Both the position numbers and the translations under genes were made by a program. 64,000 nucleotides of DNA. Source: Pelagibius sp. Its GTDB lineage: Bacteria > Pseudomonadota > Alphaproteobacteria > Kiloniellales > Kiloniellaceae. This document shows, one piece after another, positions 7,695 to 26,224 of this stretch. Numbering within the stretch: the stretch's first letter is position 1; each line of letters begins with the position of its first letter. The notes under the pieces are model-generated. The model was not told where the DNA came from. It saw nothing but the letters and a program-made list of their open reading frames with translations, and did not search any database. The DNA is taken from NCBI RefSeq assembly GCF_028281305.1, contig NZ_JANQKD010000015.1, positions 88,154-152,153 on the forward strand. The letters run 5' to 3'.

Positions 7695-10478
7695 CTACTC
7701 CGCGGCGACGAAGGCCTCGATCTTCTCGACCCTGGCGGCGCAGAACTTGAACTCCGGAATCTTGCCGAAGGGGTCAAGCTGCGGATTGGTCAGCATGTTG
7801 GCCGCCGCCTCGTTGAAGCAGAAGGGGATGAAGACCATGCCCTCCGGCACGTCGCGGTCGGCACGCACGGTGAGCGCGATCTCGCCGCGCCGCGTGCTGA
7901 CCTTCACCGTATCGCCGGCGTTCAGCGCCATGGCCGAAAGCTGGCGCGGGTGCAGGCTGGCCACCGCCTCCGGCTCCAGGCTGTCGAGCACGCTGGCCCG
8001 GCGGGTCATGGCGCCGGTGTGCCAGTGCTCCAGCATTCGCCCGGTGGTCAGCACCAGGGGGTAGTCGGCGTCCGGCAGCTCGTCCGGCGGCACCAGCCCC
8101 GCCGGCACGATCTTGGCGCGGCCATCGCTGGTCGGGAACCCTTCGGCGAAGAGGATCTCGTTGCCGGGCTTGTCCGGCGCGTCCACCGGATAGGTGACCG
8201 CATCCTCGCGCACCAGCCGGTCCCAGGTGATGTTGGCCAGCGACGGCATGACCTCGGTCATCTCGGCGAAGACATCACTCGGGTGCGTGTAGGACCAGTC
8301 CAGCCCCAGGCGGGTTGCCAGTTCCTGGATCAGCTCCCAGTCCTGACGCGCTTCGCCCGGCGGCGCTGCGACCGGGCGGGCGACCTGGACCTCACGGTTG
8401 GTGTTGGTGAAGCTGCCCCACTTCTCGGCATGGGCCGAGGCCGGCAGGATGACGTCGGCGTGCCAGGCGGTCTCCGTCAGGAAGATGTCCTGCACCACCA
8501 GATGCTCCAGCTTGGCGAGGGCCTGGCGGGCATGGGCCTGGTCGGGATCCGACATCGCCGGGTTTTCGCCCATGATGTACATGCCCGTGATCTGATCGGC
8601 GATGATGGCATCGACGATTTCCACCACCGTCAGCCCGCGCTTGGGATCGAGCTTTGTGTCCCAGAACGCCTCGTACTCCTTGCGCACCTCCTCCAATTCC
8701 ACCGACCGATAGTCGGGGTAGACCATGGGGATGAGGCCGGCGTCGGAAGCACCCTGGACGTTGTTCTGGCCACGCAGGGGATGCAGGCCGGTGCCCGGGC
8801 GGCCGACATGGCCGGTGATCATGGTAAGCGCGATCAGGCAGCGGGAGTTGTCGGTGCCGTGGACGTGCTGGGAGATGCCCATGCCCCAGAAGATGATGGA
8901 GCGCTCGCTGCGGGCGTAGAGCCGCGCCACCTCGCGGATGGTCGCCGCGTCGATGCCGCAGACCTCTGCCATGGCCTCCGGCGAGAAGTCCTGCACCATG
9001 GTCTTCAGGTCTTCAAAGCCGCTGGTATGGGCCTGGATGTATTGCTGGTCGGTCAAGCCCTCCTCGATGATGGTGTGGATCATCGCGTTGAGGAGCGCCA
9101 CGTCCTGTCCGGGCTTGAACTGCAGATGCGTATGGGCGTAGCGGTCGATCTGCTGTTTGCGCGGGTCCATGACGATGATATTGGCACCGCGCCTGGCCGC
9201 GTTCTTCAGGAAGGTGGCGGCCACCGGATGGTTCTGCTCCGGCCGCGCCCCGATAATGATCATGCAGTCGCTGTCCTTGGCCGCCGTAAAGGGCGCGGTG
9301 ACGGCGCCGGAGCCGATGCCCTCCATCAGCGCCGCCACCGAAGAGGCGTGGCAGAGCCGGGTGCAGTGGTCGACGTTGTTGGTATGGAAGGCGGTGCGGA
9401 TCAGCTTCTGGAAGAGGTAGGCTTCCTCGTTGGAGCCCTTGGCCGAGCCGAAGCCGGCAAGGCCGGACGGGCCCTTCGCCTCATAGACCGTCTTCAAGCC
9501 GTCGGCGGCCCGGTCCAGGGCCTCCTCCCAGCTCGCCTCGCGGAAATGAGTCCAGGGGTTCGCCGGATCGACCTGATCGTCCCATTTCTTGGGCACGTCG
9601 TCGCGGCGGATCAGCGGCTTGGTCAGGCGGTGCGGGCTGTAGATGTAGTCCCAGCCGAAGCGGCCCTTCACACAGAGCCGGTTCTGGTTGGCCGGCCCGT
9701 CGCGCCCGTCGATGTAGAGAATCTTGTCGTCCTTCACGTGGACCTTGGTCTGGCAGCCCACCCCGCAGTAGGGGCAGAGCGTGTCCACCGAGCGGTCCTC
9801 GAAGTGGACCCGGGTCCCCTTCTCGTCCAGCAGGCTGGATTCCATCAGCGCGCCGGTGGGGCAGGCCTGAACGCACTCGCCGCAGGCCACACAGGTCGAC
9901 TCGCCCATGGCGTCGTCGAAGTCGAAGATCACCTTGGAGCCATGGCCGCGGTAGGCCATCCCGATGACGTCGTTGACCTGGACCTCACGGCAGGCGCGCA
10001 CACAGAGATTACAGTTGATGCAGGCGTCCAGATGCACCGCCATGGCCGGATGGCTGACATCGGGCGCCCAGGTCTCGCGGGCCGGAAAGCGGCTTTCGGT
10101 TACGTCCAGGTCGGCGGCCCAGTGCCAGAACTTGCTCTCCGGATCGTGGGAGGTCTCGCGCGCCGGCTGGTCGGCGACCAGCAGCTCGAAGACCATGGCC
10201 CGGGCCTTCTCCGCCCGTTCGCTGGCCGAAGTCACCACCATGCCGTCGCGCGGCTCGCGGATGCAGGAGGCTGCGAGGACCCGCTCGCCCTCGATCTCCA
10301 CCATGCAGGCGCGGCAGTTGCCGTCAGAGCGGTAGCCCGGCTCCGGGCTGTAGCAGAGGTGCGGCAGGCGCGTGCCGGCACGCTCCGCGGCCTGCCAGAT
10401 GGTCTCCCCGGGAAAGGCCTCGACCTCTCGTCCGTCGAGGGTGAATTGGATGGTCTGGCTCGCTTCCTGCAGGCTCAT
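7695..10478 (-). CDS. NAD-dependent formate dehydrogenase, molybdo/tungsto-pterin alpha subunit
   Basis: Catalytic subunit oxidising formate to CO2 in a cytoplasmic NAD-reducing complex (FdsA / Fdh1A type). Domain order over 927 residues: N-terminal [2Fe-2S] ferredoxin domain with CRACMVEIEG; two [4Fe-4S] clusters (CINCNLCVRAC, CVACGECVQACPTG); the Mo/W-bisMGD iron-sulfur domain (CPYCGVGCQTKVHV); the molybdopterin oxidoreductase core; and the C-terminal dinucleotide-binding domain (TTGRMLEHWHTGAMTRR). The metal ligand lies in HCTRLCHASSVA: a cysteine, not selenocysteine, followed by the conserved His. It overlaps the beta/gamma gene by four bases (ATGA). It likely disposes of formate released by the upstream oxalate genes. 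Confidence 0.94.
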   Translation of the reverse strand: MSLQEASQTIQFTLDGREVEAFPGETIWQAAERAGTRLPHLCYSPEPGYRSDGNCRACMVEIEGERVLAASCIREPRDGMVVTSASERAEKARAMVFELLVADQPARETSHDPESKFWHWAADLDVTESRFPARETWAPDVSHPAMAVHLDACINCNLCVRACREVQVNDVIGMAYRGHGSKVIFDFDDAMGESTCVACGECVQACPTGALMESSLLDEKGTRVHFEDRSVDTLCPYCGVGCQTKVHVKDDKILYIDGRDGPANQNRLCVKGRFGWDYIYSPHRLTKPLIRRDDVPKKWDDQVDPANPWTHFREASWEEALDRAADGLKTVYEAKGPSGLAGFGSAKGSNEEAYLFQKLIRTAFHTNNVDHCTRLCHASSVAALMEGIGSGAVTAPFTAAKDSDCMIIIGARPEQNHPVAATFLKNAARRGANIIVMDPRKQQIDRYAHTHLQFKPGQDVALLNAMIHTIIEEGLTDQQYIQAHTSGFEDLKTMVQDFSPEAMAEVCGIDAATIREVARLYARSERSIIFWGMGISQHVHGTDNSRCLIALTMITGHVGRPGTGLHPLRGQNNVQGASDAGLIPMVYPDYRSVELEEVRKEYEAFWDTKLDPKRGLTVVEIVDAIIADQITGMYIMGENPAMSDPDQAHARQALAKLEHLVVQDIFLTETAWHADVILPASAHAEKWGSFTNTNREVQVARPVAAPPGEARQDWELIQELATRLGLDWSYTHPSDVFAEMTEVMPSLANITWDRLVREDAVTYPVDAPDKPGNEILFAEGFPTSDGRAKIVPAGLVPPDELPDADYPLVLTTGRMLEHWHTGAMTRRASVLDSLEPEAVASLHPRQLSAMALNAGDTVKVSTRRGEIALTVRADRDVPEGMVFIPFCFNEAAANMLTNPQLDPFGKIPEFKFCAARVEKIEAFVAAE

Positions 10479-12178
10479 TTCAGTTCCTCCGGGAAATACT
10501 TGAGGACACAGGACAGAGGATTGGGCGCCGCCTGGCCGAGGCCGCAGATGGAGGCATCGCGCATCACCACTGCGAGTTCCTCAAGCAAGGGCACGTCCCA
10601 ACGCTCCTCGCGCATCAGCTTCACCGCCTTTTCGGTGCCGTTGCGGCAGGGCGTGCACTGACCGCAGGACTCGTCCTCGAAGAAGCGCATGAGGTTCAGC
10701 GCTGCTGCTTTCACATCGTCCTTGTCGGAGAGCACGACCACGGCATGGGAACCGACGAAGCAGCCGAATTTGTCCAGCGCCCCGAACTCTAGAGGCGCAT
10801 CACCCATAGAGGCCGGCAGGATGCCGCCGGACGCACCGCCCGGCAGGTAGGCATGGAAGGCATGCCCCTCCGCCATGCCGTCGCAGAACTCCTCGATCAA
10901 TTCCTGGACCGAGATCCCGGCGGGCGCCAGCTTCACGCCCGGCGACTTGACTCGGCCGGAAACGGAGTAGGAGCGCAGCCCCTTGCCGCCGTTGCGGCCA
11001 TGCCCGGCGAACCACTCGGCGCCCTTCTCCACGATGTCCCGCACCCAGTACACGGTCTCGACATTCTGGTTCAGGGTCGGCTTGCCGAAGAGCCCGACCT
11101 CGGCGATGTAGGGCGGGCGGTGGCGCGGCAGACCGCGCTTGCCTTCGATGGACTCGATCATCGCCGACTCTTCGCCGCAGATGTAGGCCCCGGCGCCGCG
11201 CCGCAGCTCGAGCGGGCAATGCTCGGTGAGACCCGCCGCGTCCAGCTTTGCCATCTCCCGCCGCAGGATCTCCAGCACCGCCGGATACTCGTCGCGCATG
11301 TAGATGTAGCAGCGCTCGCAGCCCACCGCCCAGGCGGCGATCAGGGCGCCCTCCAGGAAGCGGTGCGGATCGGTTTCCAGATAGTGCCGGTCCTTGAAGG
11401 TGCCGGGCTCGCCCTCGTCGCCGTTGATGGTCATCAGGCGCGGGCCGAGGTAGCCGCGCACGATCTCCCACTTCTTGCCGGTGGGAAAACCGGCGCCGCC
11501 GAGGCCGCGCAGACCGGCGTGGGACAGCGCTTCGACCAGCTCTTCCGGCGTCCGCTTGCCCGCCAGGCAGGCGCGCAGGAGGGCGTAGCCGCCTTCCGCG
11601 GTATAGCCGTCGTAATCCGTGTAGTCCGGGATGACGGGATGGTGGTCGTCCTGCACCGCCGCCGAGAGGTTCTCCAAGGTCGCGTGATCGATGTGACGGT
11701 GGCCGACCTCGGCCACCGGAGCGCAATGGCACCGTCCCATGCAAGGGGCCGGAACGACGCGCACCTGCTCACCCACTTCCTGGGGCAGCGCCTGCAGCAG
11801 GTCCTGGGCGCCCATCATCTCGCAGGTGATGGACTCGCAGACCCGGATCGTCAGCGGCGGCGGTGGCGCCTCGCCGTCCAGCACGATGTCGAAGTGGGCA
11901 TAGAAGGAAGCCACCTCGTAAACGGCCGCCATGGGCAGGTTCATCTCCTCCGCCAAAGCGCGCAGATGACGCGCCGAGAGATGACCGTGGGCGTCCTGGA
12001 TCAGGTGGAGGTGTTCGATCAGCAGGTCGGCCCGGCGCGGGCGCTCGCCCAGCAACGCCTGAACCTCGGCCAGCGCTTCGATGTCGAGCTGGCGACCTTT
12101 GGGCGTCAGGGGGGCTTTGCGCCGGCCCGAGCCCGGGTGTATCTGCCGCTCAAACGGGCGCGGCGTTCCCTCTGGCAT
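10475..12178 (-). CDS. Formate dehydrogenase fused gamma-beta subunit (NuoE-NuoF type)
   Basis: Diaphorase subunit passing electrons from the alpha subunit to NAD+. The first ~160 residues are a NuoE/FdsG-like thioredoxin-fold domain with a [2Fe-2S] cluster (RVCESITCEMMGAQ, APCMGRCHC). The rest is NuoF/FdsB-like: GLRGLGGAGFPTGKKWE (NADH/FMN site), NGDEGEPGTFKDRHYLETDPHR, GAGAYICGEESAMIESIEGKRG and the [4Fe-4S] motif DESCGQCTPCRNG. The 567-residue fusion with a ~930-residue alpha partner matches the two-subunit architecture of Methylorubrum Fdh1AB. That enzyme carries tungsten, but the metal cannot be read from sequence. ATG at 12178 has GGAGG upstream. A 267-base gap separates it from the SucD-like gene, so it may have its own promoter. 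Confidence 0.93.
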   Translation of the reverse strand: MPEGTPRPFERQIHPGSGRRKAPLTPKGRQLDIEALAEVQALLGERPRRADLLIEHLHLIQDAHGHLSARHLRALAEEMNLPMAAVYEVASFYAHFDIVLDGEAPPPPLTIRVCESITCEMMGAQDLLQALPQEVGEQVRVVPAPCMGRCHCAPVAEVGHRHIDHATLENLSAAVQDDHHPVIPDYTDYDGYTAEGGYALLRACLAGKRTPEELVEALSHAGLRGLGGAGFPTGKKWEIVRGYLGPRLMTINGDEGEPGTFKDRHYLETDPHRFLEGALIAAWAVGCERCYIYMRDEYPAVLEILRREMAKLDAAGLTEHCPLELRRGAGAYICGEESAMIESIEGKRGLPRHRPPYIAEVGLFGKPTLNQNVETVYWVRDIVEKGAEWFAGHGRNGGKGLRSYSVSGRVKSPGVKLAPAGISVQELIEEFCDGMAEGHAFHAYLPGGASGGILPASMGDAPLEFGALDKFGCFVGSHAVVVLSDKDDVKAAALNLMRFFEDESCGQCTPCRNGTEKAVKLMREERWDVPLLEELAVVMRDASICGLGQAAPNPLSCVLKYFPEELK

Positions 12179-12445: not shown

Positions 12446-13324
12446 TCAGGCCGCCTTCAGGGCCTGGCGGACCGTCTGTCCGATCTCCGCGACGGACTCG
12501 GCCACAGTCACACCGGCGCCGCGCAGGGACTCGATCTTCTCCGCCGCGCCGCCCTGGCCGAAGACGTTCACCGTCCCCGCATGACCCATGCGCCGCTCGG
12601 TCGGTGCGGCGAGGCCGGCCACGTAGGCCACAACCGGCTTGGGCACCCGCTGGGAGCGGAGAAAGGCCGCCGCCTCCTCTTCTTCGCTGCCGCCGATCTC
12701 TCCCAGCAGAACGACACAATCGGTGTCCGGGTCGCGGAAGAAGAGCTCCAGGCAGTCGACGAAGCCCAGGCCATGGACGGGATCGCCGCCGATGCCGACG
12801 GAAGTCGACTGGCCGAGACGCTGGGCCGAGACCTGCTCCACCACTTCCGAGGTGAGCGAGGCGGAACGCGAGACGATGCCCACCCGCCCGGGCCGTTCCA
12901 GATGCGCCGGCATGACGCCGATCTTACAGCGCCCCGGATTGAGGATGCCCTGCGAGTTGGGGCCGATGAGCCGGCTGGCGGAGCCTTCGAGACGGCGCTT
13001 CACCCGCACCATGTCGAGCACCGGAATACGCTCGGTCACGCAGACGATCAGCGGCAGTTCGGCATCGATGGCCTCAATGATCGCCTCGGCGGCCGAGGCC
13101 GGCGGCACAAAGACCGCAGAGGCAGTGGCGCCGGTGGCCGCGACCGCATCGGCCACGCGGTCGAAGACCGGCAGACCGAGGTGGCGGCTGCCCCCCTTGC
13201 CGGGCACAACGCCGCCCACCACCTGGGTCCCGTAGGCGATCGCCCGTTCCATGTGGTAGCTGGCCTGACGGCCGGTGAAGCCCTGGCAAATGACCTTGGT
13301 GGCGCTGTCGACGAGAATGGCCAT
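12446..13324 (-). CDS. Succinyl-CoA synthetase alpha-like subunit of an ADP-forming acyl-CoA ligase
   Basis: CoA-binding/phospho-His subunit of the SucD/MtkB family, 292 residues. Seen: [42 protein letters not shown], the CITEG-like [49 protein letters not shown] and the phosphorylated His in [16 protein letters not shown]. Divergent positions: [11 protein letters not shown] where SucD has GPNCPG, and [11 protein letters not shown] where SucD has SRSGTLTYE. These suggest an acyl substrate other than succinate. Start: the SucC-like stop and this ATG overlap as TGATG with GGGAGG upstream; the track's GTG three bases earlier is less likely. Context (oxalate, formate, TTT transporter) suggests oxalyl-, formyl- or another small-acid-CoA ligase; malate-CoA ligase is the main alternative. 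Confidence 0.82.
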
Positions 13325-14499
13325 CACGCCGCCTCCCGGCCCGCGGCCTCAACGGCCGAAGCCACCGCTGCACCGATGGAACTCGCCGGCGTGAAGGCAA
13401 CGCCCTGGGCCATCAGAGTCTTGCGGGCCAGTTCGCCGTTGGTCCCAGCGGCCCTGACGATGAGCGGCACACGCAGCCCCTCCGACCTGCAGGCCGCGGC
13501 AATTCCCTCCGCCACCGTGTCACAGCGCAGAATGCCGCCGCCGTAAACGTTCACCAGGATGGCGTCGATGTCCTGGTTGCGCAGCAGCAGACGGAAGCCT
13601 TCGGCCACCTGGTCGCGGCTGGCCTCCGGCCGGATGTCCATGAAGTCTGCCGGCGCGCCGCCCCGCTGTTTCAGCAGGTCCAGGGTCGCCAGCGCCAGGC
13701 CGGCGCCGTTCACCATGACGCCGATGTTGCCGTCGAGGTGGACGTAGTTCAGGGCGAAACGCTGGGCTTCCAGCTCCGTCGGATCCAGTTCCTCAACGTC
13801 GCGCAGGGCCGCCAGATCCTTGTGGCGGAAGAGTGCGTTGTCGTCGAGGACCATCTTGACATCGAGCGCGGTCAGGCTGCCTTCGTGAGTCAGTGCCAGC
13901 GGGTTGATCTCGATAAGGCTGGCATCCAGTTCCAGAAACGCCTTGTAGAGGGCCGCCATGATCTCCACCGCCTGGGATGCGGCCCGGCCTTCAAGGCCCA
14001 GATCCGCGGCCAGGCCGGCAGCGGCCTGCAGGTCGAAACCGTGATCGCCGTCGACCGCCAGGTGCCGCAGCGACCCCGGCTCCGCCTGGGCGCGCTGTTC
14101 GATGTCGCTGCCGCCTGTGCGCGAGGCCAGAAAGGCCACCCGCCCCTGGCTGCGGTCGATGAGGATCGCGAGGTAGAGTTCGCGCGCGGCGCCCACCGCC
14201 TGCTCGATGTAGACCGAGCGCACCAGCTTGCCGCTTGGGCCGGTCTGCGGCGTTACCAGACGCTTGCCGAGGAGCTCACTCGCCGCAGTCGCTGCGGCCT
14301 CTGTACCGGACACCAGGCGAACGCCGCCGGCATCGTGCCGGAGCCCGGCATGGATCTGGGCCTTGACCGCCCAACTCGACCCGCCGAGCGACTTGGCCGC
14401 CGCCGCCGCGGCGTCGGCCCGGGAGACCAGACTGCCGGCCGGGCTTGGAACGCCGTAGCGCCCAAGGATCTCTTTTGCCTGATGTTCGTGAAGGTTCAT
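13324..14499 (-). CDS. Succinyl-CoA synthetase beta-like subunit of an ADP-forming acyl-CoA ligase
   Basis: ATP-grasp subunit of the SucC/MtkA family, 391 residues (family 385-395). Seen: MNLHEHQAKEILGRYGVPSP, VKAQIHAGLRHDAGGVRL (nucleotide-binding region; SucC usually reads GGRGKAGGV), LGKRLVTPQTGPSGK (as in MtkA rather than SucC), LIEINPLALT, LDVKMVLDDNALFRHKDL, VNGAGLALATLDLLKQRGG and LVNVYGGGILRCDTVAEGI. The usual DVGGGA segment is replaced by DIRPEASRDQ, a clear departure from both SucC and MtkA. It pairs with the SucD-like gene by a one-base stop/start overlap. A FadR-type palindrome lies about 93 bases upstream of the start. No TCA-cycle genes surround it, so it is a specialised paralogue. 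Confidence 0.82.
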   Translation of the reverse strand: MNLHEHQAKEILGRYGVPSPAGSLVSRADAAAAAAKSLGGSSWAVKAQIHAGLRHDAGGVRLVSGTEAAATAASELLGKRLVTPQTGPSGKLVRSVYIEQAVGAARELYLAILIDRSQGRVAFLASRTGGSDIEQRAQAEPGSLRHLAVDGDHGFDLQAAAGLAADLGLEGRAASQAVEIMAALYKAFLELDASLIEINPLALTHEGSLTALDVKMVLDDNALFRHKDLAALRDVEELDPTELEAQRFALNYVHLDGNIGVMVNGAGLALATLDLLKQRGGAPADFMDIRPEASRDQVAEGFRLLLRNQDIDAILVNVYGGGILRCDTVAEGIAAACRSEGLRVPLIVRAAGTNGELARKTLMAQGVAFTPASSIGAAVASAVEAAGREAA

Positions 14500-14591: not shown

Positions 14592-14601
14592 TGGTATACC
14601 A
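14592..14601. promoter_or_regulatory. Putative GntR/FadR-type operator upstream of the sucC-like gene
   Basis: Perfect palindrome TGGTATACCA, matching the TNGTNNACNA pattern of FadR-subfamily GntR operators. It lies in the 187-base gap between tctA and the sucC-like start. The same core occurs upstream of tctC (18081) and of gntR (26215). Confidence 0.62.
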
Positions 14602-14686: not shown

Positions 14687-16201
14687 TCAGGTTCCAGCTG
14701 CCTGGGGCCGTTTGGACAAAATGCGGCGAATGATCGGCACCATCACCAGCGCGAAGGCGCAGAAGAAGATGGTCGCCGACAAGGGACGTTCCAGGAAGGT
14801 CATCGGATCGCCCTGCGACGACAGCAGCGACTGACGCAGCGACCGCTCGGCAAGGCCGCCCAGGACGATGGCCAGCACGGCCGGCGCCACCGGGTAGTCC
14901 AGCTTGCGCAGGATGTAACCGCAGACCCCGAAGAGCACCATCAGCCAGACGTCGTGCAGCGACGAATTCGGCGAGTAGCCGCCGACCAGGCAGAGCACGA
15001 AGATAATCGGCGCCAGAATGGTGAAAGGCATGACCAGAACCCGCACAAAGAGCGGGATGAACGCAATGTTGATGATCACCGTGAAGAGATTGGCCATGTA
15101 CATCGAGCCGATCAGCCCCCAGACGAAGTCCGGATGCTCCACGAACAGCAGCGGGCCGGGCCGCAGCCCCCAGATGATCATGCCGCCCAGAAGGATCGCG
15201 GTGGTGGGCGAACCGGGGATGCCGAGGGTCAGCATCGGCAGCATGGACCCGGTGGAAGCGGCGTTGTTGGCCGACTCGGGTGCTGCCACACCGACCACAT
15301 TGCCCTTGCCGAACGACTCCGGGTCTTTCGAGAAGGTCTTGGACAAGCCATAGGCCATCAGCGAAGCCGGTGTGGCGCCGGCTGCGGGCAGGATGCCGAC
15401 GAAGTAGCCGAGCACGCCGCTGAACACCGTCTGCGTGAGGTAGTTTTTGACCTTCTTCATGTTCTCGACGACGGAACGGAAGGACGACTTCACATAGTGC
15501 ACCTGCATCTTTCCGCCGGACTGTTCCATGGTCCAGAGGATCTCGCCGATGCCGTAGATACCGATCGCCAGCACCAGGAAGCTGACGCCGCGCAGGAAAC
15601 CGTCGATGTCGAAGAACACCAGACGCGGATTGCCCGAAATGATGTCGTAGCCGACCGCCGCCAGCACCAGCCCGATGAAGATCGAGAACATGGTCTTCGG
15701 AATGTCGTCGCCGCCCAGACCGATGAAGGTGGCGAAGGCCAGCACCATGAGGGCGAACTCTTCCTGGGGCCCGAAGGACAGTGCGAAATTGGCCAGCGGC
15801 GGTGCCGCGATGGTGAACAGCACGGCGGCGATCGTGCCGCCGATGAAGGACGCGAGGGCGGCAGCCATCAGCGCCTGATCGCCACGGCCCGTCATGGCCA
15901 GTGGCCGGCCGTCGAAGACGGTGGCGACAGCGGTCGAGGCCCCTGGTATCCCCAGCGTGATCGACGAAACGGCACCGCCGTACATGGCCCCGTAGTAGAT
16001 CGCCGCCAGGAAGATGATCGCCGCGTTCGGCGGCACGAGGAACGTGATCGGCAGCAGGATCGCAACGCCGTTGACCGACCCGAGGCCGGGCATCGCGCCG
16101 ACGAACAGCCCGATGATGCAGCCGATCACCATCATCATGAGGTTGACCGGTTGAATGGCTTCGAGCAGCCCGCCAAGGAGAGGATCGATGATGGTTTCCA
16201 T
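14687..16201 (-). CDS. tctA: Tripartite tricarboxylate transporter, large membrane subunit TctA
   Basis: Twelve-helix-class integral membrane subunit of a secondary, binding-protein-dependent carboxylate importer; 504 residues, the usual length. Family signatures: IGLFVGAMPGLGSVNGVAILLPITF near the N-terminus and GVAAPESANNAASTGSMLPMLTLGIPGSPTTAILLGGMIIWGLRPGP in the middle. It follows tctC and tctB on the same strand. The neighbourhood makes oxalate or another small carboxylate the likely solute, but TctA itself does not reveal it. Confidence 0.93.
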   Translation of the reverse strand: METIIDPLLGGLLEAIQPVNLMMMVIGCIIGLFVGAMPGLGSVNGVAILLPITFLVPPNAAIIFLAAIYYGAMYGGAVSSITLGIPGASTAVATVFDGRPLAMTGRGDQALMAAALASFIGGTIAAVLFTIAAPPLANFALSFGPQEEFALMVLAFATFIGLGGDDIPKTMFSIFIGLVLAAVGYDIISGNPRLVFFDIDGFLRGVSFLVLAIGIYGIGEILWTMEQSGGKMQVHYVKSSFRSVVENMKKVKNYLTQTVFSGVLGYFVGILPAAGATPASLMAYGLSKTFSKDPESFGKGNVVGVAAPESANNAASTGSMLPMLTLGIPGSPTTAILLGGMIIWGLRPGPLLFVEHPDFVWGLIGSMYMANLFTVIINIAFIPLFVRVLVMPFTILAPIIFVLCLVGGYSPNSSLHDVWLMVLFGVCGYILRKLDYPVAPAVLAIVLGGLAERSLRQSLLSSQGDPMTFLERPLSATIFFCAFALVMVPIIRRILSKRPQAAGT

Positions 16202-16290
16202 GTCCGTCTACCGCCTGCTTTGCCTGTTGCCTGGTTTCACGCCGCGGCCCCGGACGGGCCACGTCCCGGCGTGCCGTATGGTTTTCGGGA

Positions 16291-16794
16291 TCAGTAGATG
16301 AGATCGTAGATCGGATAGAACGCCGGCTCAGTGATGCCCTTGGGCAGCGGTGTCGTCAGTGCCCATTCGAACAGCAGGAACATCGCCACCGGTGCCGCCA
16401 CCGCCAGGGCGAGCGTGACGAACCAGGAATGCCGGCCAAGGAATCGCACGAAGGCGATCATGAACAGGAAGACCGCGGCGTACATGCCGATGAGATGGGT
16501 GCCGGCCAGCAGCAGCAGCAACCCGACCACCACCGGACCGACGATGGCCAGGGTGTCGGCGCTCATGAAGATCTCTTTGGAGCGAGACTGCGGCGTCACG
16601 CGGCGGAACCAGCGCAGGATGGTCCACAGCGAAGTGACCAGCATGCCGACGGACAGCCAGAAGGGCCAGGCGCCACCGCCCGGTCCCGCCCCCGCGACCC
16701 AGCCGATGTTGAGCTCTGTGCTCTTCCACATCAGACCGAGGGACAAGAGCGCGAGGATCACCGCAACCAACAACTCGGCAGTACGGACCGTCAT
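16291..16794 (-). CDS. tctB: Tripartite tricarboxylate transporter, small membrane subunit TctB
   Basis: 167-residue membrane protein with four predicted helices (for example TAELLVAVILALLSLGLMW, WPFWLSVGMLVTSLWTIL, TLAIVGPVVVGLLLLLAGTHLIG and LALAVAAPVAMFLLFEWALTTPLPKG). The layout and the closing LPKG motif are typical of TctB. It lies between tctC and tctA, the standard C-B-A order. A strong hairpin in the 139-base tctC-tctB gap probably sets a lower level for the membrane subunits than for the binding protein. Confidence 0.88.
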   Translation of the reverse strand: MTVRTAELLVAVILALLSLGLMWKSTELNIGWVAGAGPGGGAWPFWLSVGMLVTSLWTILRWFRRVTPQSRSKEIFMSADTLAIVGPVVVGLLLLLAGTHLIGMYAAVFLFMIAFVRFLGRHSWFVTLALAVAAPVAMFLLFEWALTTPLPKGITEPAFYPIYDLIY

Positions 16795-16887
16795 ACCGGC
16801 GCCTCCCTGACAACGCGCAGCTTCAGCGGATGAATCTATGCTTTTTTATGATTCCGGAGTCGGCCAGGCGGCCGTGACCAAGGCGGC

Positions 16888-16926
16888 GGGGTTAGGGGGG
16901 CGCTCCGAACGTCACCCCCCTGCCCC
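16888..16926 (-). other. Intercistronic stem-loop between tctC and tctB
   Basis: On the minus strand GGGG-C-AGGGGGG pairs with CCCCCCT-AA-CCCC across a 14-base loop. The hairpin lies just after the tctC stop with no T-tract, so mRNA stabilisation or partial termination is more likely than full termination. Confidence 0.6.
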
Positions 16927-16933
16927 ATAACGG

Positions 16934-17935
16934 TTACTCGCCGGTGATCGCTTCAGCACCGACCTTTTCGATCAGAGCCTGGTGACGCGCCAGTTGCTGA
17001 TCGTGGAAGGCGGCCAGATCGGCGCCGGCAACCCAGCTCTCGCACATCAGGCCTTCTTCCTTGCAGTAGCTCTGCCACTGCTCGGAATTGAAGACTTTCT
17101 CGAACAGGCTGATGTACCACTCCTGGGCTTCGCTCGACATGCCCGGAGGCGCGTTGAAGGAGCGCTGCATGAAGTAGACGATGTCATGCCCCAGCTCCTT
17201 GCTGGTCGGCACGTCCGGGAAAGCCCCCAGCCGCTCGTCGGTAAACTGGACCAAAGGACGGCTCTGGCCGGCACGGTAGAACTGCATCTGCTCCGATGGA
17301 TTGTTCACCGTCGAGGCAATGTGCTTGCCGATCAGGTTCTTGGCAACAGTGCCCCCGCCCGGGAAGGGAATGTAGGTGATGTTGTCGATGCCGAACTCGG
17401 CCTGGAGCATGGCGAAGAGGATGGAGTCCTCCTGCCCCTTGCCGGTGCCGCCGACGTTCCAGTTGTCCGCCGCCTTGACCGTTTGGACCCAGTTGTCCAG
17501 CGAATCGATACCGCTGTCCGAGGTGACCCAAAGCTGGAACGTATCCAGCGCCATAAGACCGATCGGCGTGAACTTGGTCACGTCGACGCCCAGGCCCTGG
17601 TTGATGATCGGTGTGGTGTAGTAGCTGTTGAGCGTCACCAAGACGGTGTGATCGTCGCCGGCCTTGTCCTGCAGGTAGCGCAGAGCCTCGGCGCCCGAGC
17701 CACCCGGCTTGTTGATCGGGATGAAAGGTCTCGGGGACAGGTCGTTCTGGTCGATGATGCCCTGGATCAGCCGCGCCAGCTGGTCGGCACCGCCACCGGT
17801 GCCTGCCATGATGATCATCTCGACGGGCTTCCTGGGCTCCCACGCCTGGGCTTCGGAGATCGTTGCACCTGACACTGCGACGCCCATTGTCAAAGCCAGC
17901 ACGCCGCCAGCTAGAATTCCTCTGGTAACTCTCAT
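16934..17935 (-). CDS. tctC: Tripartite tricarboxylate transporter substrate-binding protein TctC
   Basis: Periplasmic Bug-family receptor, 333 residues. A cleavable signal peptide is visible (GILAGGVLALTMGVAVSGATISEAQA). The mature part starts WEPRKPVEMIIMAGTGGGADQLARLIQ, the ligand-loop region of Bug proteins, followed by NKPGGSGAEALRYLQDKAGDD, TPIGLMALDTFQLWV and WNVGGTGKGQEDSILFAMLQ. It is the first gene of tctCBA, with a 538-base upstream region holding a FadR-type operator. The ligand is unknown; in this cluster oxalate or a related C2 acid is the best inference. Confidence 0.92.
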   Translation of the reverse strand: MRVTRGILAGGVLALTMGVAVSGATISEAQAWEPRKPVEMIIMAGTGGGADQLARLIQGIIDQNDLSPRPFIPINKPGGSGAEALRYLQDKAGDDHTVLVTLNSYYTTPIINQGLGVDVTKFTPIGLMALDTFQLWVTSDSGIDSLDNWVQTVKAADNWNVGGTGKGQEDSILFAMLQAEFGIDNITYIPFPGGGTVAKNLIGKHIASTVNNPSEQMQFYRAGQSRPLVQFTDERLGAFPDVPTSKELGHDIVYFMQRSFNAPPGMSSEAQEWYISLFEKVFNSEQWQSYCKEEGLMCESWVAGADLAAFHDQQLARHQALIEKVGAEAITGE

Positions 17936-18080: not shown

Positions 18081-18090
18081 TGGTATACAA
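18081..18090. promoter_or_regulatory. Putative GntR/FadR-type operator upstream of tctC
   Basis: TGGTATACAA fits TNGTNNACNA, one base from the perfect palindrome at 14592. It lies about 146 bases before the tctC start. AATACC follows immediately, giving a second weak half-site. Confidence 0.6.
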
Positions 18091-18473: not shown

Positions 18474-19334
18474 TCAATGCATAAACAGAATGGGCAGATC
18501 TGTGTGGTCGACAACGTACTGGGTCACCCCGCCGAGGATCAACTCGCGCTGCCGGCTCTGTCCATAGGCGCCCATCAGCAGGCAGTCGCAGCCAAGTCGG
18601 CGCGCCGAATCGAGCAGCGTCTGGGCAACCGCCGCGGACTTGGCGGTGAACCGCTCGCAAGCGGACGTCACGCCGTGCGTGTCGAGATAGATCTTTGCTT
18701 CCTCGACCGCGACCGGAAGCTTCGAGTCTTCGGGCGCCAGCAAGGTGACCGCCTCGGCCTCTCTCAGAATCGGCAGGGCCGTGGTCATCGCACGTGCCGC
18801 CTCCCCGCTGCCGTTCCAGGCAATGGCCACCCGCGCGCCCAGGGATTCGACGGGACGCGGGGGGCACATGAGGACCAGCTTGCCGGATTCGAGCAGCGCC
18901 GCCTGCAGGGTGTTGAGCCCGAGATTCCGGTCCCGGTCCGGCTGGGCGACCGCGATGAGGTCGGCCAACCGGCCGCGCCGGCCGATGATGTTCGCCTGCT
19001 TGCCGGTCGCCTCGCGCCAGGTGGCCGAGACGCGGTCCGCCGGCCAGGGAAAGCCATCGACTTCCGCAATGTCCCGCCTGGAGCAGTAGTCGTCGAACAG
19101 CTTACGGATCTGGCCTTCCTCCTCATCCGCCAGGGCCGTGGCCGACGTCGTGATGGTCTTCATCAGGCTGGCTGGAATCGGTACGCCGTAGGGGATCATG
19201 TCTTGTGGCTTGGGGCGGCAGTGCAGCACTTCCAGATGAGCGACATGACGCTTGGCCAAAGCCCAGGCATGATCCAGTACTCCCTCGCCCAGGCCATCGC
19301 CACGCACCGGCACCAGGATTGTTCGGACAGTCAT
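18474..19334 (-). CDS. Tandem universal stress protein (UspA, two domains)
   Basis: 286-residue cytoplasmic protein with two UspA folds. Domain 1 starts MTVRTILVPVRGDGLGEGVLDHAWALA. Domain 2 (about 160-286) reads ARVAIAWNGSGEAARAMTTALPIL and ends LGCDCLLMGAYGQSRQRELILGGVTQYVVDHTDLPILFMH, where GAYGQSRxRE-GGVT corresponds to the ATP-binding G-2x-G-9x-G(S/T) region. ATG at 19334 is preferred over the track's 19388 because GGGAGAGG lies just upstream and the fold begins there. It sits 138 bases after ftfL, between the formyl-transfer genes and the transporter; its role in the cluster is unclear. Confidence 0.85.
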   Translation of the reverse strand: MTVRTILVPVRGDGLGEGVLDHAWALAKRHVAHLEVLHCRPKPQDMIPYGVPIPASLMKTITTSATALADEEEGQIRKLFDDYCSRRDIAEVDGFPWPADRVSATWREATGKQANIIGRRGRLADLIAVAQPDRDRNLGLNTLQAALLESGKLVLMCPPRPVESLGARVAIAWNGSGEAARAMTTALPILREAEAVTLLAPEDSKLPVAVEEAKIYLDTHGVTSACERFTAKSAAVAQTLLDSARRLGCDCLLMGAYGQSRQRELILGGVTQYVVDHTDLPILFMH

Positions 19335-19472
19335 TTCGCACCTCTCCCTGCCAGCAGGTCCCGGGGGCTCACACATCCGCCGAGACATTTAACACCGACA
19401 GTGAGCGGTCTTAACGACTTCTGCCCGCCGACGGCGCGAACTGCAAAGCTCCTTGGCTCTTTCTAACAGGCC

Positions 19473-21146
19473 CTAGAACAGACCTTGAATCAATCCCGCC
19501 TTGTCGAGCGCAATGCTGTTGGCAGCAGGCACCCGCGGCAGGCCCGGCATAGTCATGATTTCGCCGCAGATGACGACGATGAAGCCGGCGCCGGCGGACA
19601 GGCGAACCTCGCGGATCGGCACCGCATGGCCGCTGGGCGCGCCGCGCAGGTTCGGGTCGGTCGAGAAGCTGTACTGGGTCTTGGCCATGCAGACCGGCAG
19701 ATCGCCGTAGCCCGCATCCTCCCACTGCTTCAACTGATCGCGGATCTTCTTGTCGGCGATGGCCTCCTCGGCGCCGTAGATCTCATTGGCGATGGTATTG
19801 ATCTTCTGGAACAGGGGCATGCCGTCTTCGTAAAGCGGCTTGAAGGCGGCCTTGCCGCCGTCGAGCAGGCCGACCACCTTGTTCGCCAGCTCCTCGGTGC
19901 CTTCCGAGCCCTTGCCCCAGTGTTCGCAGACCACCGCGTCGACGCCGAGCGTCTGGGTGAACGCCTGGATCGCCGCCAGTTCGGCCTCGCTGTCCTTCAC
20001 GAAGCGGTTGATGGCCACCACAGCGGGCACACCGAACTTGGCCACGTTGGCAATGTGCCGGCCGAGGTTCTCCAACCCCTTCTTCACCGCTTCGACGTTC
20101 TCGTCGCCGAGGGCGTCCTTGGCGACGCCGCCGTGCATCTTCAGCGCCCGCACGGTGGCGACGATGACAACCGCTTCCGGATTGAGCCCGGCCTTACGGC
20201 ACTTGATGTCGAAGAACTTCTCGGCGCCAAGGTCGGCGCCGAAGCCGGCCTCGGTCACCACATAATCGGCCAGCTTGAGGGCCGACTTGGTGGCCGAGAC
20301 CGAGTTGCAGCCATGGGCGATGTTGGCGAAAGGACCGCCATGGATGAAGGCCGGGTTGTTCTCCAGCGTCTGCACCAGGTTGGGCATCAGCGCATCCTTC
20401 AGCAGAACGGTCATCGGGCCTTCGGCTTTCAGATCGCGCGCATAGATCGGCTTGCGGTCGCGGGTGTAGGCAACCACGATGTTGCCCAGGCGCGTCTGCA
20501 GATCCTCCAGTCCGTCGGCCAGGCAGAAGATCGCCATGACCTCCGAGGCCACGGTGATGTCGAAGCCGGTCTGGCGCGGAAAGCCGTTGGCGACCCCGCC
20601 GAGCGACGTCACTGTGTCGCGCAGCGCCCGGTCGTTCATGTCCAGCACTCGGCGCCAGGAGACCCGGCGCTCGTCGATGCCCAGCTCATTGCCCCAGTAG
20701 ATGTGGTTGTCGATCAGCGCCGAGAGCAGATTGTGCGCGGAGGTGATGGCGTGAAAGTCGCCGGTGAAATGGAGGTTGATGTCCTCCATCGGGACCACCT
20801 GGGCGTAGCCGCCGCCGGCTGCCCCGCCCTTCATGCCAAAGCAGGGTCCCAGCGAAGGCTCGCGCAGGCAGATCATGGCCTTCTTGCCGATCCGGTTGAG
20901 ACCGTCGCCCAGACCCACGGTGGTGGTGGTTTTGCCCTCGCCGGCCGGCGTCGGCGAGATCGCGGTCACCAGGATCAGCCGCCCGTCCCCCTTGGACTTC
21001 AGGGACTCCAGATAGTCGAAGCTGACCTTCGCCTTGCTGGGACCGTACTGCATCAGAGCGTCGGCGGGCATGTCGAGCTTGGCACCGATCTCGGTGATCG
21101 GCTTCATACTGGCTTCGCGGGCAATTTCGATATCGGACTTGGCCAT
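19473..21146 (-). CDS. fhs: Formate--tetrahydrofolate ligase
   Basis: Also named ftfL. ATP-dependent activation of formate to 10-formyl-THF, the entry of formate into one-carbon assimilation. 557 residues, full length. Seen: the P-loop [67 protein letters not shown] (highly diagnostic), [25 protein letters not shown], and [20 protein letters not shown]. In this cluster it directs part of the formate derived from oxalate to biosynthesis, while the formate dehydrogenase oxidises the rest. It lies 93 bases downstream of the formyl-THF-hydrolase-like gene. Confidence 0.97.
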
Positions 21147-21239: not shown

Positions 21240-22154
21240 CTAGGTCCCGAGCTTGGCGCCGACGCTGAGGCCGGCCTTGGCCGCATAGTCCCCGGCGGAG
21301 ATCTTCTTGTCGTCGTGCGGGCGCACCCGATCGACACGGATGGCGCCGCCGCCGGCGGCCACTGTGAAGCTGCCGTCCTCGGCGGCGATAACGCTGCCCG
21401 GATCGCCCGCACCTTCGACCTTGCCGGAGTCGAAGATCTTCACCTCGTTGCCGTTGAAGGTGGTCCAGGCGCCCGGTTGGGGGTTGGTCCCGCGTATCAG
21501 GTTGTAGACCTCGTCCACCGGCTTCGACCAGTCGATCTGGGCGTCCGCCTTGCGGCACCAGCTCTCGTAGGTCTTCTTGCTGTGATCCTGAGGGATCGAC
21601 GGTGCCTTGCCGTCGCGCACCAGATCGACAGCCTCGACCATGGCGTCCACACCCATGGGGAAGAGCTGGTTGAAGTAGAGCGTGCCCAGCGTGTCGTCGG
21701 GACCGATCTCGACCGTCTTCTGCAGCAGCACCGGGCCCTCGTCGAGCCCTTCGTCGGGCCAGAAGATCGTCAGGCCGGTTTCCTTGCGGCCCATGATGAT
21801 CGGCCAGTTGATCGAGCTTGGGCCGCGGTGCAAAGGCAGCAGCGAGGGGTGGTACTGGATCGTGCCCTTCTCCGGAACGTCGAGCACCGGCTGGGGCACG
21901 AAAAGCGTCACATAGGCCATGACGCAGAGGTCCGGCGCGAAGGAGCGCATCAGTTCCTCGGCCTCCGGCGTCTTCCAGGACGCGGGCTGGTGCAGCGGCA
22001 GGCCCTTCTCCAGGGCGAACTCCTTCAGGGGATCGGTCGGCCGCCCCTCCTTATCGGGGGCGCAGAACACCCCAACCACATTCTCCCCACGCTCCAGAAG
22101 CTTCTCGAGCACGGCCTTGCCAAAGGCCTGCTGGCCATGGACGACAATCCGCAT
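21240..22154 (-). CDS. Stand-alone formyl-THF hydrolase/formyltransferase domain protein
   Basis: 304 residues, formyltransferase fold (Fmt/PurU/ALDH1L1-N family). It most resembles the N-terminal hydrolase domain of 10-formyl-THF dehydrogenase: MRIVVHGQQAFGKAVLEKL, VVGVFCAPDKEGRPTDPL, IQYHPSLLPLHRGPSSINWPIIMG, IFWPDEGLDEGPVLLQK, and a C-terminal Fmt_C-like part (NLIRGTNPQPGAWTTFNGNEVKIF). Catalytic His102 and Asp138 are spaced 36 apart, as in the ALDH1L1 domain. Position H-2 is Gln100, where Fmt and PurU have Asn and ALDH1L1 has Ile. No aldehyde dehydrogenase or carrier domain follows. Between frc and ftfL, it could move formyl groups between THF and CoA, or simply hydrolyse 10-formyl-THF. 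It is not the housekeeping Fmt by context. Confidence 0.8.
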   Translation of the reverse strand: MRIVVHGQQAFGKAVLEKLLERGENVVGVFCAPDKEGRPTDPLKEFALEKGLPLHQPASWKTPEAEELMRSFAPDLCVMAYVTLFVPQPVLDVPEKGTIQYHPSLLPLHRGPSSINWPIIMGRKETGLTIFWPDEGLDEGPVLLQKTVEIGPDDTLGTLYFNQLFPMGVDAMVEAVDLVRDGKAPSIPQDHSKKTYESWCRKADAQIDWSKPVDEVYNLIRGTNPQPGAWTTFNGNEVKIFDSGKVEGAGDPGSVIAAEDGSFTVAAGGGAIRVDRVRPHDDKKISAGDYAAKAGLSVGAKLGT

Positions 22155-22255: not shown

Positions 22256-23533
22256 TCATTCAGCGGCGGCCTGCTCCGGCAGATCGCCCAGGGCCCCGCT
22301 GGCCCAGGTCTCCTGGATCTCGTCCTCGGAAAGCCCAAGGACCTGGCTCAGGATCTCGTTGGTGTGCTCGCCCAGCAGCGGCGAGCGGGTCACCTCGGCA
22401 GGCGAGTCCGACAGTTTGACGGGATTGCCCACAGTCAGGTACTTGCCGCGCTCCGGGTGGTCGACCTCGACGATGGTGCCGGTTTCCCGAAGGCTCGGCT
22501 CCTCCGCCAGCTCCTGCATCGAGAGGATCGGCCCGCAGGGAATGTTCAGCGGGTTGCAGGCCTCCATGACCTCGAACTTGGTCTTGGTCTTGGTCCAACC
22601 CTCGATGGTGTCGAAGATCTGCGGGATCTTGTCGAGCCGGGCCTCCGGCTTCGCATAGCCCGGGTCTTCCTTCCACTCCGGCTTGCCGATCAGATCGCAG
22701 ATGTTGCCCCAGACGGCGGCCTGGGTGATGAAGTAGACATAGGCGTTGGGGTCGGTCTCCCAGCCCTTGCACTTGACGATCCAGCCGGGCTGACCGCCGC
22801 CGGAATCGTTGCCGGCCCGCGGCGTCGCTTCGCCGAAGGGAATGCCCTGGCCGAACTGGCTGTATTCCTTCAGAGGCCCATGCTGGAGGCGCTGCTGATC
22901 GCGCAGCTTCACCCGGCAGAGGTTCAACACCCCGTCCTGCATGGCGGCCAGCACACGCTGACCCTTGCCCGACGTCTCGCGATGGAACAGCGCCGTGACG
23001 ATGCCCAGAGCCAGGTGGAGGCCGGTGCCGGAATCGCCGATCTGCGCGCCGGTCACGGTCGGCGGCCCGTCCAGGAAGCCGGTGGTCGAAGCGGCGCCGC
23101 CGGTGCATTGGGCAACGTTCTCGTAGACCTTGCAGTCCTCGTAAGGCCCGGGGCCGAAGCCCTTGACGGAGGCGTAGATCATCCGCGGATTGATCTTCTG
23201 CACCTGCTCCCAGCCGAAGCCCATGCGGTCCAGCGCACCGGGGGCGAAGTTCTCCACCAGCACATCGCAGGACTGTACCAGCTTGGTCAGAACCTCCTTG
23301 CCCTTCTCGCTCTTGGTGTTGAGCGTGATGGAGCGCTTGTTGTGGTTCAGCATGGTGAAGTAGAGGCTGTCGACGTCCGGGATGTCGCGCAACTGGCCGC
23401 GGGTGGCATCCCCCACACCAGGCCGTTCCACCTTGATGACGTCGGCGCCGAACCAGGCCAGAAGCTGGGTGCAGGTCGGCCCGGACTGAACATGGGTGAA
23501 GTCCAGGATGCGTACGCCTTCGAGAGCTTTCAT
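22256..23533 (-). CDS. frc: Formyl-CoA:oxalate CoA-transferase
   Basis: Class III CoA-transferase exchanging CoA between formyl-CoA and oxalate, giving oxalyl-CoA and formate; cytoplasmic. 425 residues, matching Frc of oxalotrophs. Seen: [33 protein letters not shown], the catalytic Asp in [17 protein letters not shown], the glycine loop [14 protein letters not shown] (the GGGQ loop specific to Frc), and [16 protein letters not shown] at 23533 has AGGAG upstream. It lies 42 bases after oxc, so the two are very likely co-transcribed and form the core oxalate degradation cycle. Confidence 0.95.
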
Positions 23534-23575: not shown

Positions 23576-25321
23576 CTACTTCTTGGCAACCACGCTCTGC
23601 GGATTGAGATTGCCGATGCGGCCGCTTTCCGTGCCTGCCGCTTCGTCGATGACCGCGTTCACCAGGGCCGGCCGGCCGGAGTCCATGGCCTCGTTGACCG
23701 CGCGGCGCAGTTCATCGGGCGAGGTCGCGTAGTACCCGGCGCCGCCGAAGGCCTCCATCATCTTGTCGTAGCGCGCATCCTTGACGAAGACAGTGGTCGC
23801 CGCGTCCGCGCCGCCGGTCGGGTTGACGTCGGTCCCGCGATAGATGCCGCCATTGTTGAAGACCACCACGCAGATGGGCAGGTTGTAGCGGCAGATCGTC
23901 TCGATCTCCATGCCCGAGAAGCCGAAGGCGCTGTCGCCCTCGCCGGCCAGCACCGGCAGCCCGGTCTCAACCGCCGCCGCGATGGCCTGGCCCATGCCGA
24001 TGCCCATGACGCCCCAGGTTCCGACGTCCAGGCGCTTGCGGGGCTTGTACATGTCGATGATGCTGCGCGCGAAATCGAGGGTATTGGCCCCTTCGTTCAC
24101 GAGAACGGCGTCCGGCCGCTCGGCGATGATGGTCCGCAGCACGCCCAGGGCGCCGTGAAAGTCCATCGGCACGTTGTTGTTCTGCAGCCGCGGCGCCATG
24201 CGCTCGATGTTGGCGTCCTTCTTCGCCCTGACGGCCTCGGTCCAGTCGGCGGGCGGCGGGGTCCAGCCATCGCCCATCGCCTCAAGCAGGGCGGAGACGC
24301 AGGAGCCGATGTCGCCCACCAGCGGCGCGGCGATCTCGACGTTGCTGTCCATCTCCTTCGGCTCGATGTCGATCTGGACGAACTTCTTCGGCGCGTTCCC
24401 CCAGGTCTTGCCCTTGCCGTGGGAGAGCAGCCAGTTGAGCCGCGCACCGATCATCAGGACGACATCGGCCTCCTTCAGCACCAGGGAGCGGGCCGGGCCG
24501 GCCGACTGGGGATGGGTGTCGGGCAGCAGGCCCTTGGCCATGCTCATCGGCAGATAGGGAAAGCCGCTTTTCTCGACCAGGGCGCGGATCTCTTCGTCGG
24601 CCTGGGCGTAGGCAGCCCCCTTGCCAAGGACGATCAGGGGCCGCTTGGCGCCCTTCAGCACCTCCAGCGCCCGCGCGACGGCCTCCGGCGCCGGCAACTG
24701 GCGCGGCGCGGCGTCGACGACCTTCACGAGGGACTGTTGACCGGCTTCCGCGTTCATGACCTGACCCAGCAGATTGGCCGGCAGGTCAAGATAGACACCG
24801 CCGGGCCGCCCGGACACCGCCGAGCGGATGGCCCGGGCAATGCCGATACCGATGTCCTCGGCATGCAGCACGCGGTAGGCCGCCTTGCAGAGCGGCTTGG
24901 CAATGGCGAGCTGATCCATCTCCTCGTAGTCTCCCTGCTGCAGGTCGACGATCTCCCGCTCGGAAGACCCGCTGATGAGGATCATGGGGAAGCAGTTGGT
25001 GGTGGCGTGGGCCAGGGCCGTCAGGCCGTTGAGAAAGCCCGGCGCGGAGACCGTCAGGCAGACCCCGGGCTTCTTGGTCAGAAAGCCGGCGATGGCAGCG
25101 GCGTAGCCGGCATGCTGCTCGTGGCGGAACGACAGGACCCGCATGCCCTCGGCCTGCATGTAGCGGCCAAGGTCCGTGATCGGGATGCCCGGGACGTTAT
25201 AGATGGTGTTGATGCCGTTGAGCTTCAGCGCGTCGATGACGAGGTGAAAACCGTCGGTCAGGGCCTCTGACTCGGCGGCTTGTTCCACGGTGGCATCAAG
25301 GCTCTGTACGGATGCTGACAT
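23576..25321 (-). CDS. oxc: Oxalyl-CoA decarboxylase
   Basis: Thiamine-diphosphate enzyme converting oxalyl-CoA to formyl-CoA and CO2. 581 residues with three TPP-enzyme domains: the N-terminal domain with catalytic Glu in [37 protein letters not shown]; the central domain ([30 protein letters not shown]); and the C-terminal ThDP site [37 protein letters not shown] (GDS...NN). NNGGIYRG and the length match Oxc rather than acetolactate synthase. GGGAG precedes the ATG. It is the first enzyme gene after gntR. Confidence 0.95.
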
Positions 25322-25419: not shown

Positions 25420-25467
25420 CAGTCGAGGGCTCACTCAGTCGAGGCCTCATTCAATCGAGATAATCGA
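25420..25467. repeat. Three degenerate 16-bp tandem repeats at the gntR 3' end
   Basis: CAGTCGAGGGCTCACT, CAGTCGAGGCCTCATT and CAATCGAGATAATCGA follow each other without gaps. The last copy carries the gntR stop codon region. Possibly replication slippage or binding sites in the gntR-oxc gap. Confidence 0.5.
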
Positions 25468-26140
25468 CGTGCGCCTCGATGTGCGCCGCCAGATTCAAAG
25501 TGTGTTCGCGCACTAGGCGCTCCGCGAGTTCAGTATCGCGGGCTTCCAGCGCCTCGATAATGTGCAGATGGTCGATGATCGACCGCTTGGCCCGGTCCTG
25601 TTCCGAAATCGTCCGGGCCCGGATACCCTTCATGTGAATGAACAGGCGATCGGCGGTTTCCTTCAACAGAGCGCAGCCGCTGAGCTCCAGGATCGACTGA
25701 TGAAACTCGATGTTGCGGTCCGAGTACTCGTCGATGTGCGCCTGGACCTGCCCGTTCTCGAAAGAGGTGAAAAGCTTGCGCAAGGAGGCGATGCCCTCGT
25801 CGGAGGCATTCTGGGTGATCAGCCGGGCGGCCATGCTTTCCAGCGCCGCCCAGACCGTGATCATCTCCAGGATCTCCTTGCGCGACTTGCGGACGATAAA
25901 GACGCCGCGGCGCGGAATGACGGTAACCAGCCCTTCCTGCTCCAGGCGCGCCAGAGCTTCACGGATCGGCGTACGGCTGATGCCGAGCTGCTCGGAGAGC
26001 TGCCGCTCGTCCAGCTTCAACTGGGCGTCGTCGGCATAGATGTTCATGGAGGTTATGCCGTCACGCAGCGTCTCGTAGATGTGCTCCTTCAAGCTGAAGG
26101 TCGTCTCGATCGGCTTGACTTCGAGCTTGTTCGGCAGCAT
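25451..26140 (-). CDS. GntR family regulator, FadR subfamily (FCD domain)
   Basis: 229-residue repressor-type regulator. The N-terminal winged helix has LDERQLSEQLGISRTPIREALARLEQEGLVTVIPRRGVFIV, the GntR signature. The C-terminal all-helical FCD domain includes DRNIEFHQSILELSGC and a His-rich end (HLHIIEALEARD...REHTLNLAAHIEAH) that fits the metal/ligand-binding site. The track begins at a TTG at 26224, but that start overlaps the operator; ATG 26140 (MLPNKLEVKPIETTF) gives the normal family length, although its ribosome site is weak. It heads the oxc-frc array and has a candidate autoregulatory operator about 75 bases upstream. Likely effector: oxalate, oxalyl-CoA or formyl-CoA (inference). 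Confidence 0.88.
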   Translation of the reverse strand: MLPNKLEVKPIETTFSLKEHIYETLRDGITSMNIYADDAQLKLDERQLSEQLGISRTPIREALARLEQEGLVTVIPRRGVFIVRKSRKEILEMITVWAALESMAARLITQNASDEGIASLRKLFTSFENGQVQAHIDEYSDRNIEFHQSILELSGCALLKETADRLFIHMKGIRARTISEQDRAKRSIIDHLHIIEALEARDTELAERLVREHTLNLAAHIEAHVDYLD

Positions 26141-26214: not shown

Positions 26215-26224
26215 TGGTATACAA
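26215..26224. promoter_or_regulatory. Putative GntR/FadR-type autoregulatory operator
   Basis: TGGTATACAA, identical to the core upstream of tctC, lies 75 bases before the preferred gntR start. This is consistent with autoregulation. Confidence 0.6.

Follow-up and report, generated by a model that had tools for sequence, protein, structure and literature searches.

A tctCBA transporter among oxalate catabolism genes as a candidate oxalate importer in an alphaproteobacterium

Introduction

How does oxalate enter the aerobic bacteria that feed on it? Oxalate uptake in these organisms is poorly known: the oxalate:formate antiporter OxlT had been found in no more than two aerobic strains of bacteria (PMC10192776), and it is the sole transporter counted in two genome surveys (PMC12927642 and PMC10192776). 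The question is raised here by a 64-kb stretch of DNA (hereafter the window) from an alphaproteobacterium whose near relatives include 'Rhodospirillales bacterium BBD 1991-14' and Pelagibius marinus; their TctC proteins are 99% and 87% identical, respectively, to that of the window. In this window, the genes tctCBA of a tripartite tricarboxylate transporter (TTT) are embedded among genes for oxalate and formate metabolism.

Results

Gene content of the oxalate block

The tctCBA genes belong to a co-oriented block spanning ~7.7-26.2 kb of the window. All genes of the block lie on the minus strand, in the order gntR, oxc, frc, fmt-like, fhs, usp, tctC, tctB, tctA, sucC-like, sucD-like and two formate dehydrogenase genes:

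25451..26140, minus strand: gntR, FCD-type GntR regulator (Pfam GntR and FCD; inferred start at an internal ATG)
23576..25321, minus strand: oxc, oxalyl-CoA decarboxylase (TIGR03254, 1016.7 bits, cutoff 739)
22256..23533, minus strand: frc, formyl-CoA:oxalate CoA-transferase (TIGR03253, 723 bits, cutoff 504)
21240..22154, minus strand: Fmt-like formyltransferase (Pfam Formyl_trans_N and Formyl_trans_C; under the fmt equivalog cutoff)
19473..21146, minus strand: fhs, formate-tetrahydrofolate ligase (PRK13505, 930 bits, cutoff 652)
18474..19388, minus strand: universal-stress-type protein (Pfam Usp; between fhs and tctC in many loci)
16934..17935, minus strand: tctC (Pfam TctC, PF03401, 85.6 bits, above cutoff; intact)
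16291..16794, minus strand: tctB (Pfam TctB, PF07331, 55.8 bits, cutoff 29.1; intact)
14687..16201, minus strand: tctA (Pfam TctA, PF01970, 484.7 bits, cutoff 28.9; intact)
13324..14499, minus strand: sucC-like ATP-grasp CoA-ligase subunit beta (PRK00696, 443 bits, cutoff 370)
12446..13327, minus strand: sucD-like CoA-ligase subunit alpha (TIGR01019, 391 bits, cutoff 353)
10475..12178, minus strand: diaphorase-type subunit of an NAD-reducing formate dehydrogenase (Pfam 2Fe-2S_thioredx, Complex1_51K and NADH_4Fe-4S)
7695..10478, minus strand: formate dehydrogenase alpha subunit (TIGR01591, 742 bits, cutoff 666)

Judged by their equivalog scores, both over cutoff, the identities of Oxc and Frc are unambiguous. 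The formyltransferase-like gene is a conserved partner of oxc and frc, lying beside frc in nearly all related loci, and its product might transfer formyl groups between formyl-CoA and folate. The diaphorase-type subunit was assigned to formate dehydrogenase because the gene of the alpha subunit is adjacent. The GntR/FCD protein is the probable regulator of the block, and the sucCD-like pair is a possible oxalate- or primer-CoA ligase. ATP-grasp CoA ligases recur beside oxc/frc, as the sucCD-like pair in the window (12446-14499) and as a fused ADP-forming ligase in another locus (L155:1156-3294).

TctC is a periplasmic solute-binding protein with a signal peptide and the candidate oxalate receptor. 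TctB and TctA are the small and large membrane subunits of the TTT transporter, and TctA would by its family be a cation symporter. A first-pass annotation of this DNA had called tctCBA the sole transporter, which is true of the co-oriented block; genes for ABC permeases and binding proteins are located at 33-56 kb of the window, outside the block.

Linkage of TctC with oxalate genes

A scan of ~85,000 species genomes for TctC yielded 54 relatives with 63-99% identity in Alpha- and Gammaproteobacteria. The conserved linkage to frc/oxc that the first-pass annotation had suggested looking for was found: oxc, an Oxc-like TPP enzyme or frc lies within ~10 kb of tctC in 40 of the 54 relatives (canonical oxc in 29, an Oxc-like TPP enzyme instead in 10 and frc alone in 1). 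In five relatives the contig edge was reached with fmt/fhs adjoining tctC, and in nine we detected neither these genes at a contig edge nor oxc, the Oxc-like TPP enzyme or frc near tctC. Four of these nine (L022, L061, L062 and L067) present an Oxc match elsewhere in the assembly, one of them a fragment; no Oxc over cutoff was found in the draft assemblies of the other five (L023, L028, L041, L058 and L059). One of these loci carries a tandem pair of tctCBA sets (L023:6845-13283), with TctC identities of 68% and 51%.

We then turned to an even sample of 385 Alphaproteobacteria, in which TctC homologues were defined by E <= 1e-40. A homologue was present in 14 of 20 genomes with oxc versus 25 of the 365 others (Fisher p = 3e-11), and TctC homologue and oxc were found on one contig, ~4-16 kb apart, in nine cases. 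Seven other TctC loci of the genome that harbours the window were also examined, and none had frc or oxc nearby. Distant homologues (34-39% identity) are linked to oxalate genes in L142, L143, L145, L149 and L157, and oxalate genes do not adjoin them in L138-L141, L144, L146 and L147. Because the distant homologues are only partly linked, we restricted the oxalate assignment to the clade with an identity of roughly 43% or more.

A shared GntR/FadR-type operator

The FadR-type site previously proposed before tctC is real: TTGTATACCA is located 146 bp 5' of the tctC ATG. The palindrome occurs three times in the 64 kb, versus 0.01 copies expected, and three copies were reached in none of 100 shuffles:

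26215..26224, minus strand: operator TTGTATACCA before gntR-oxc-frc (site found upstream in 26 of 46 scored gntR loci)
18081..18090, minus strand: operator TTGTATACCA before tctC (site found upstream in 18 of 69 scored tctC loci)
14592..14601, minus strand: operator TGGTATACCA before sucC (site found upstream in 9 of 20 scored sucC loci)

The shared consensus is TKGTATACMA. The genes of the sucCD-like CoA ligase, which follow tctA immediately, have a copy to themselves, a point that the first-pass annotation did not consider. Of the 63 operator sites in the loci compared, 53 lie within the short upstream regions of gntR, tctC or sucC, a density of 1129 per Mb versus 6.6 per Mb elsewhere, and oxc, frc, fmt, fhs and usp have no site in front of them. 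We infer that the GntR/FCD regulator pairs with TKGTATACMA and thereby controls gntR-oxc-frc, tctCBA and sucCD. In a genome without Oxc over cutoff, three tandem operator copies precede tctC, with formate dehydrogenase genes adjoining (L129:9298-9459).

The sucCD-like genes, placed directly after tctA with their own operator copy, could also be read as the destination of the substrate. Under such a reading, tctCBA would import a dicarboxylate, of the C4 type (malate, succinate) or another, as substrate for the CoA ligase, and the proximity of oxc/frc would be coincidental or reflect the supply of a co-substrate. A TTT protein of Rhodopseudomonas, MatC, indeed binds malate (6hke). However, tctCBA keeps together with oxc/frc without adjacent sucCD in many loci (e.g., L018, L020, L025, L044 and L046), and sucCD is often separate and divergent from tctCBA yet retains the operator. 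A dicarboxylate destined for sucCD is, in our view, an improbable substrate.

Another transporter under the same operator was sought genome-wide. The rest of the genome contains only three further copies, none of them in front of a transporter: one precedes gcl-hyi, another a second gntR, and the third lies within a very long ORF. The copy before gcl-hyi (L176:4919-7679, contig C123 of the same genome), where gcl encodes glyoxylate carboligase, suggests that the regulon extends to glyoxylate assimilation.

OxlT and other carriers

No OxlT-like antiporter is present in the block, as the first-pass annotation had stated. The OxlT profile TIGR04259 yielded no match over cutoff in the whole 94%-complete assembly (best score 58.6 bits, cutoff 335). 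Among 31 other genomes with a related TctC, OxlT over cutoff was not found in 29, and two carry both proteins. OxlT is present in 3 of the 19 other oxc-containing genomes of the even alphaproteobacterial sample.

It is conceivable that a different carrier, unrecognised and encoded elsewhere in the genome (MFS, TRAP or another type), brings in the oxalate, and that tctCBA handles an unrelated carboxylate. Other carrier types do occur, given that TRAP genes adjoin oxc in L152 and L153, and the assembly is just 94% complete. Against this, the assembly presents no OxlT over cutoff and the other operator copies are not associated with any transporter, and we consider an unrecognised carrier to be very improbable.

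The TRAP genes of these two other Alphaproteobacteria are divergent from oxc-frc (L152:8452-11361 and L153:5655-8548), and in L153 the GntR operator sits between the TRAP genes and gntR. This system is another candidate oxalate importer. Like tctCBA, the TRAP system DctPQM is a binding-protein-dependent secondary importer adjoining oxc, but it belongs to another protein family and its role in oxalate uptake is equally putative.

Alternative catabolic modules beside tctCBA

In genomes without oxc, TctC homologues adjoin two other putative oxalyl-CoA modules. The first (module A) has the order tctCBA-gntR-TPP enzyme-frc-fmt-fhs. Its TPP enzyme is ~25% identical to Oxc, constitutes a separate family (62-73% identity to one reference member) and has no equivalents of the Oxc-specific residues Y120/E121 and S553/R555. 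This family is a candidate non-orthologous oxalyl-CoA decarboxylase. The TPP enzyme gene sits in the oxc position, between gntR/tctA and frc, in L136 (5010-6686), L122 (13496 onward), L026, L032, L034, L042, L045, L051, L052, L063, L065, L069, L121, L125, L126, L133, L142 and L143.

In the second (module B; L123, L124, L130 and L131), tctCBA lies beside a PRK05852-type AMP-forming CoA ligase and a PanE2-like reductase, a candidate route from oxalate to glyoxylate. We take AAE3 to be the closest characterised relative of the PRK05852-type ligases. In Methylobacterium extorquens, PanE2 acts as an oxalyl-CoA reductase. The plant AAE3 is an oxalyl-CoA synthetase (PMC7700444). If the AAE3 and PanE2 assignments hold, oxalate/oxalyl-CoA is the metabolite common to all three modules, and formyl-CoA, formate and glyoxylate would each be missing from at least one of them. 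On the TctC tree, a quick tree with long-branch warnings, the module label changes 29 times while the transporter stays constant; given the method and these warnings, the deep branching of the tree was left out of the argument. The presence of an AMP-forming ligase anywhere in the genome was tried as evidence in the unlinked cases and dropped. This ligase occurs in 92 of the 385 genomes anyway, and only its direct adjacency to tctCBA was therefore counted.

The modules also bear on the possibility that tctCBA imports a C2 precursor or relative (glyoxylate, glycolate, tartronate or mesoxalate) for intracellular conversion to oxalate or oxalyl-CoA. The operator before gcl-hyi suggests that the regulon touches glyoxylate, and TTT binding proteins can be promiscuous, as is Bug27 (PMC5812351). 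Yet no gene identified in the loci makes oxalate from glycolate or glyoxylate, all identified catabolic modules begin with free oxalate (frc/oxc, or synthetase plus reductase), and glyoxylate would be the product of the PanE2-type reductase, not its substrate. Import of such a precursor is the less likely reading, and oxalate itself the more probable substrate.

The TctC protein

The AlphaFold model of TctC (pLDDT 82) has TTT binding proteins as all of its nearest solved folds: 4x9t, Bug27, TBP, TphC, BugD, AdpC and MatC. The receptor loop PFxAGGxxD is near-universal in TTT binding proteins (PMC5812351). In TctC, residues 43-51 read MAGTGGGAD, which retains the G-G and D and replaces P, F and A. 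This loop is nearly invariant among 30 relatives, with A44, G45, G47-G49 and D51 strictly conserved. The loop suggests a mode of carboxylate binding unlike that of the PFxAGGxxD family, and the ligand cannot be read from it.

Discussion

Our results support the initial proposal that the TTT system is an oxalate importer, on genomic evidence of several kinds: the linkage, the three modules, the common operator and the near-general absence of OxlT. The tctCBA genes probably encode a binding-protein-dependent secondary importer for oxalate, with a putative ligand, direction and coupling ion. TctC would capture oxalate in the periplasm and TctBA would carry it inward with a cation, as is known for the TTT family. 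Inside the cell, Frc is expected to move CoA from formyl-CoA onto oxalate, and Oxc to decarboxylate oxalyl-CoA into formyl-CoA and CO2. The released formate would either undergo oxidation by the NAD-type formate dehydrogenase or be attached to folate by Fhs; these enzyme families are established and the flux through them is putative. The sucCD-like ligase may supply the first, priming CoA thioester, or it may itself activate oxalate.

OxlT (MFS, TIGR04259) resembles this system in the role proposed here, the supply of oxalate to Frc/Oxc. It is an unrelated family, and it works by exchange, whereas the TctABC type performs binding-protein-dependent import. A one-way, high-affinity importer fits this aerobic oxalate user better than OxlT exchange because formate would be consumed inside rather than exported.

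The transporter shares its three subunits and the order C-B-A with known TTT systems (TctABC of Salmonella; BugD, BugE and Bug27 of Bordetella; AdpC and MatC of Rhodopseudomonas; TphC), as well as the binding-protein fold, with query-based TM scores of 0.71-0.78 against every solved member. It differs in that its TctC is just 19-24% identical to any solved binding protein and its loop departs from the PFxAGGxxD signature. With good confidence in oxalate as the substrate, we view tctCBA as a new substrate branch of the known TTT family, not a new kind of system. The 2018 review of the family contains no occurrence of oxalate (PMC5812351), and our literature search, which covered few subscription journals, found no paper tying TTT to oxalate uptake.

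The frc/oxc modules described for marine 'Group III' Alphaproteobacteria form a homogeneously marine Oxc group, which fits many hosts found here by habitat; that study differs in considering OxlT as the sole transporter (PMC10192776). We lean slightly toward a broader proposal, in which aerobic, largely marine proteobacteria generally take up oxalate with high affinity through a distinct TTT subfamily, which was kept while Oxc, the non-orthologous TPP decarboxylase and the synthetase-reductase pair were swapped behind it.

If true, a TTT importer for oxalate would account for how oxalotrophs that have no OxlT take up their substrate, and would add a C2 dianion to the substrate range of the TTT family. 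Its genes would also mark genomes for low-level use of oxalate, in the sea as well as in marine hosts, and it would offer a binding protein for oxalate sensing.
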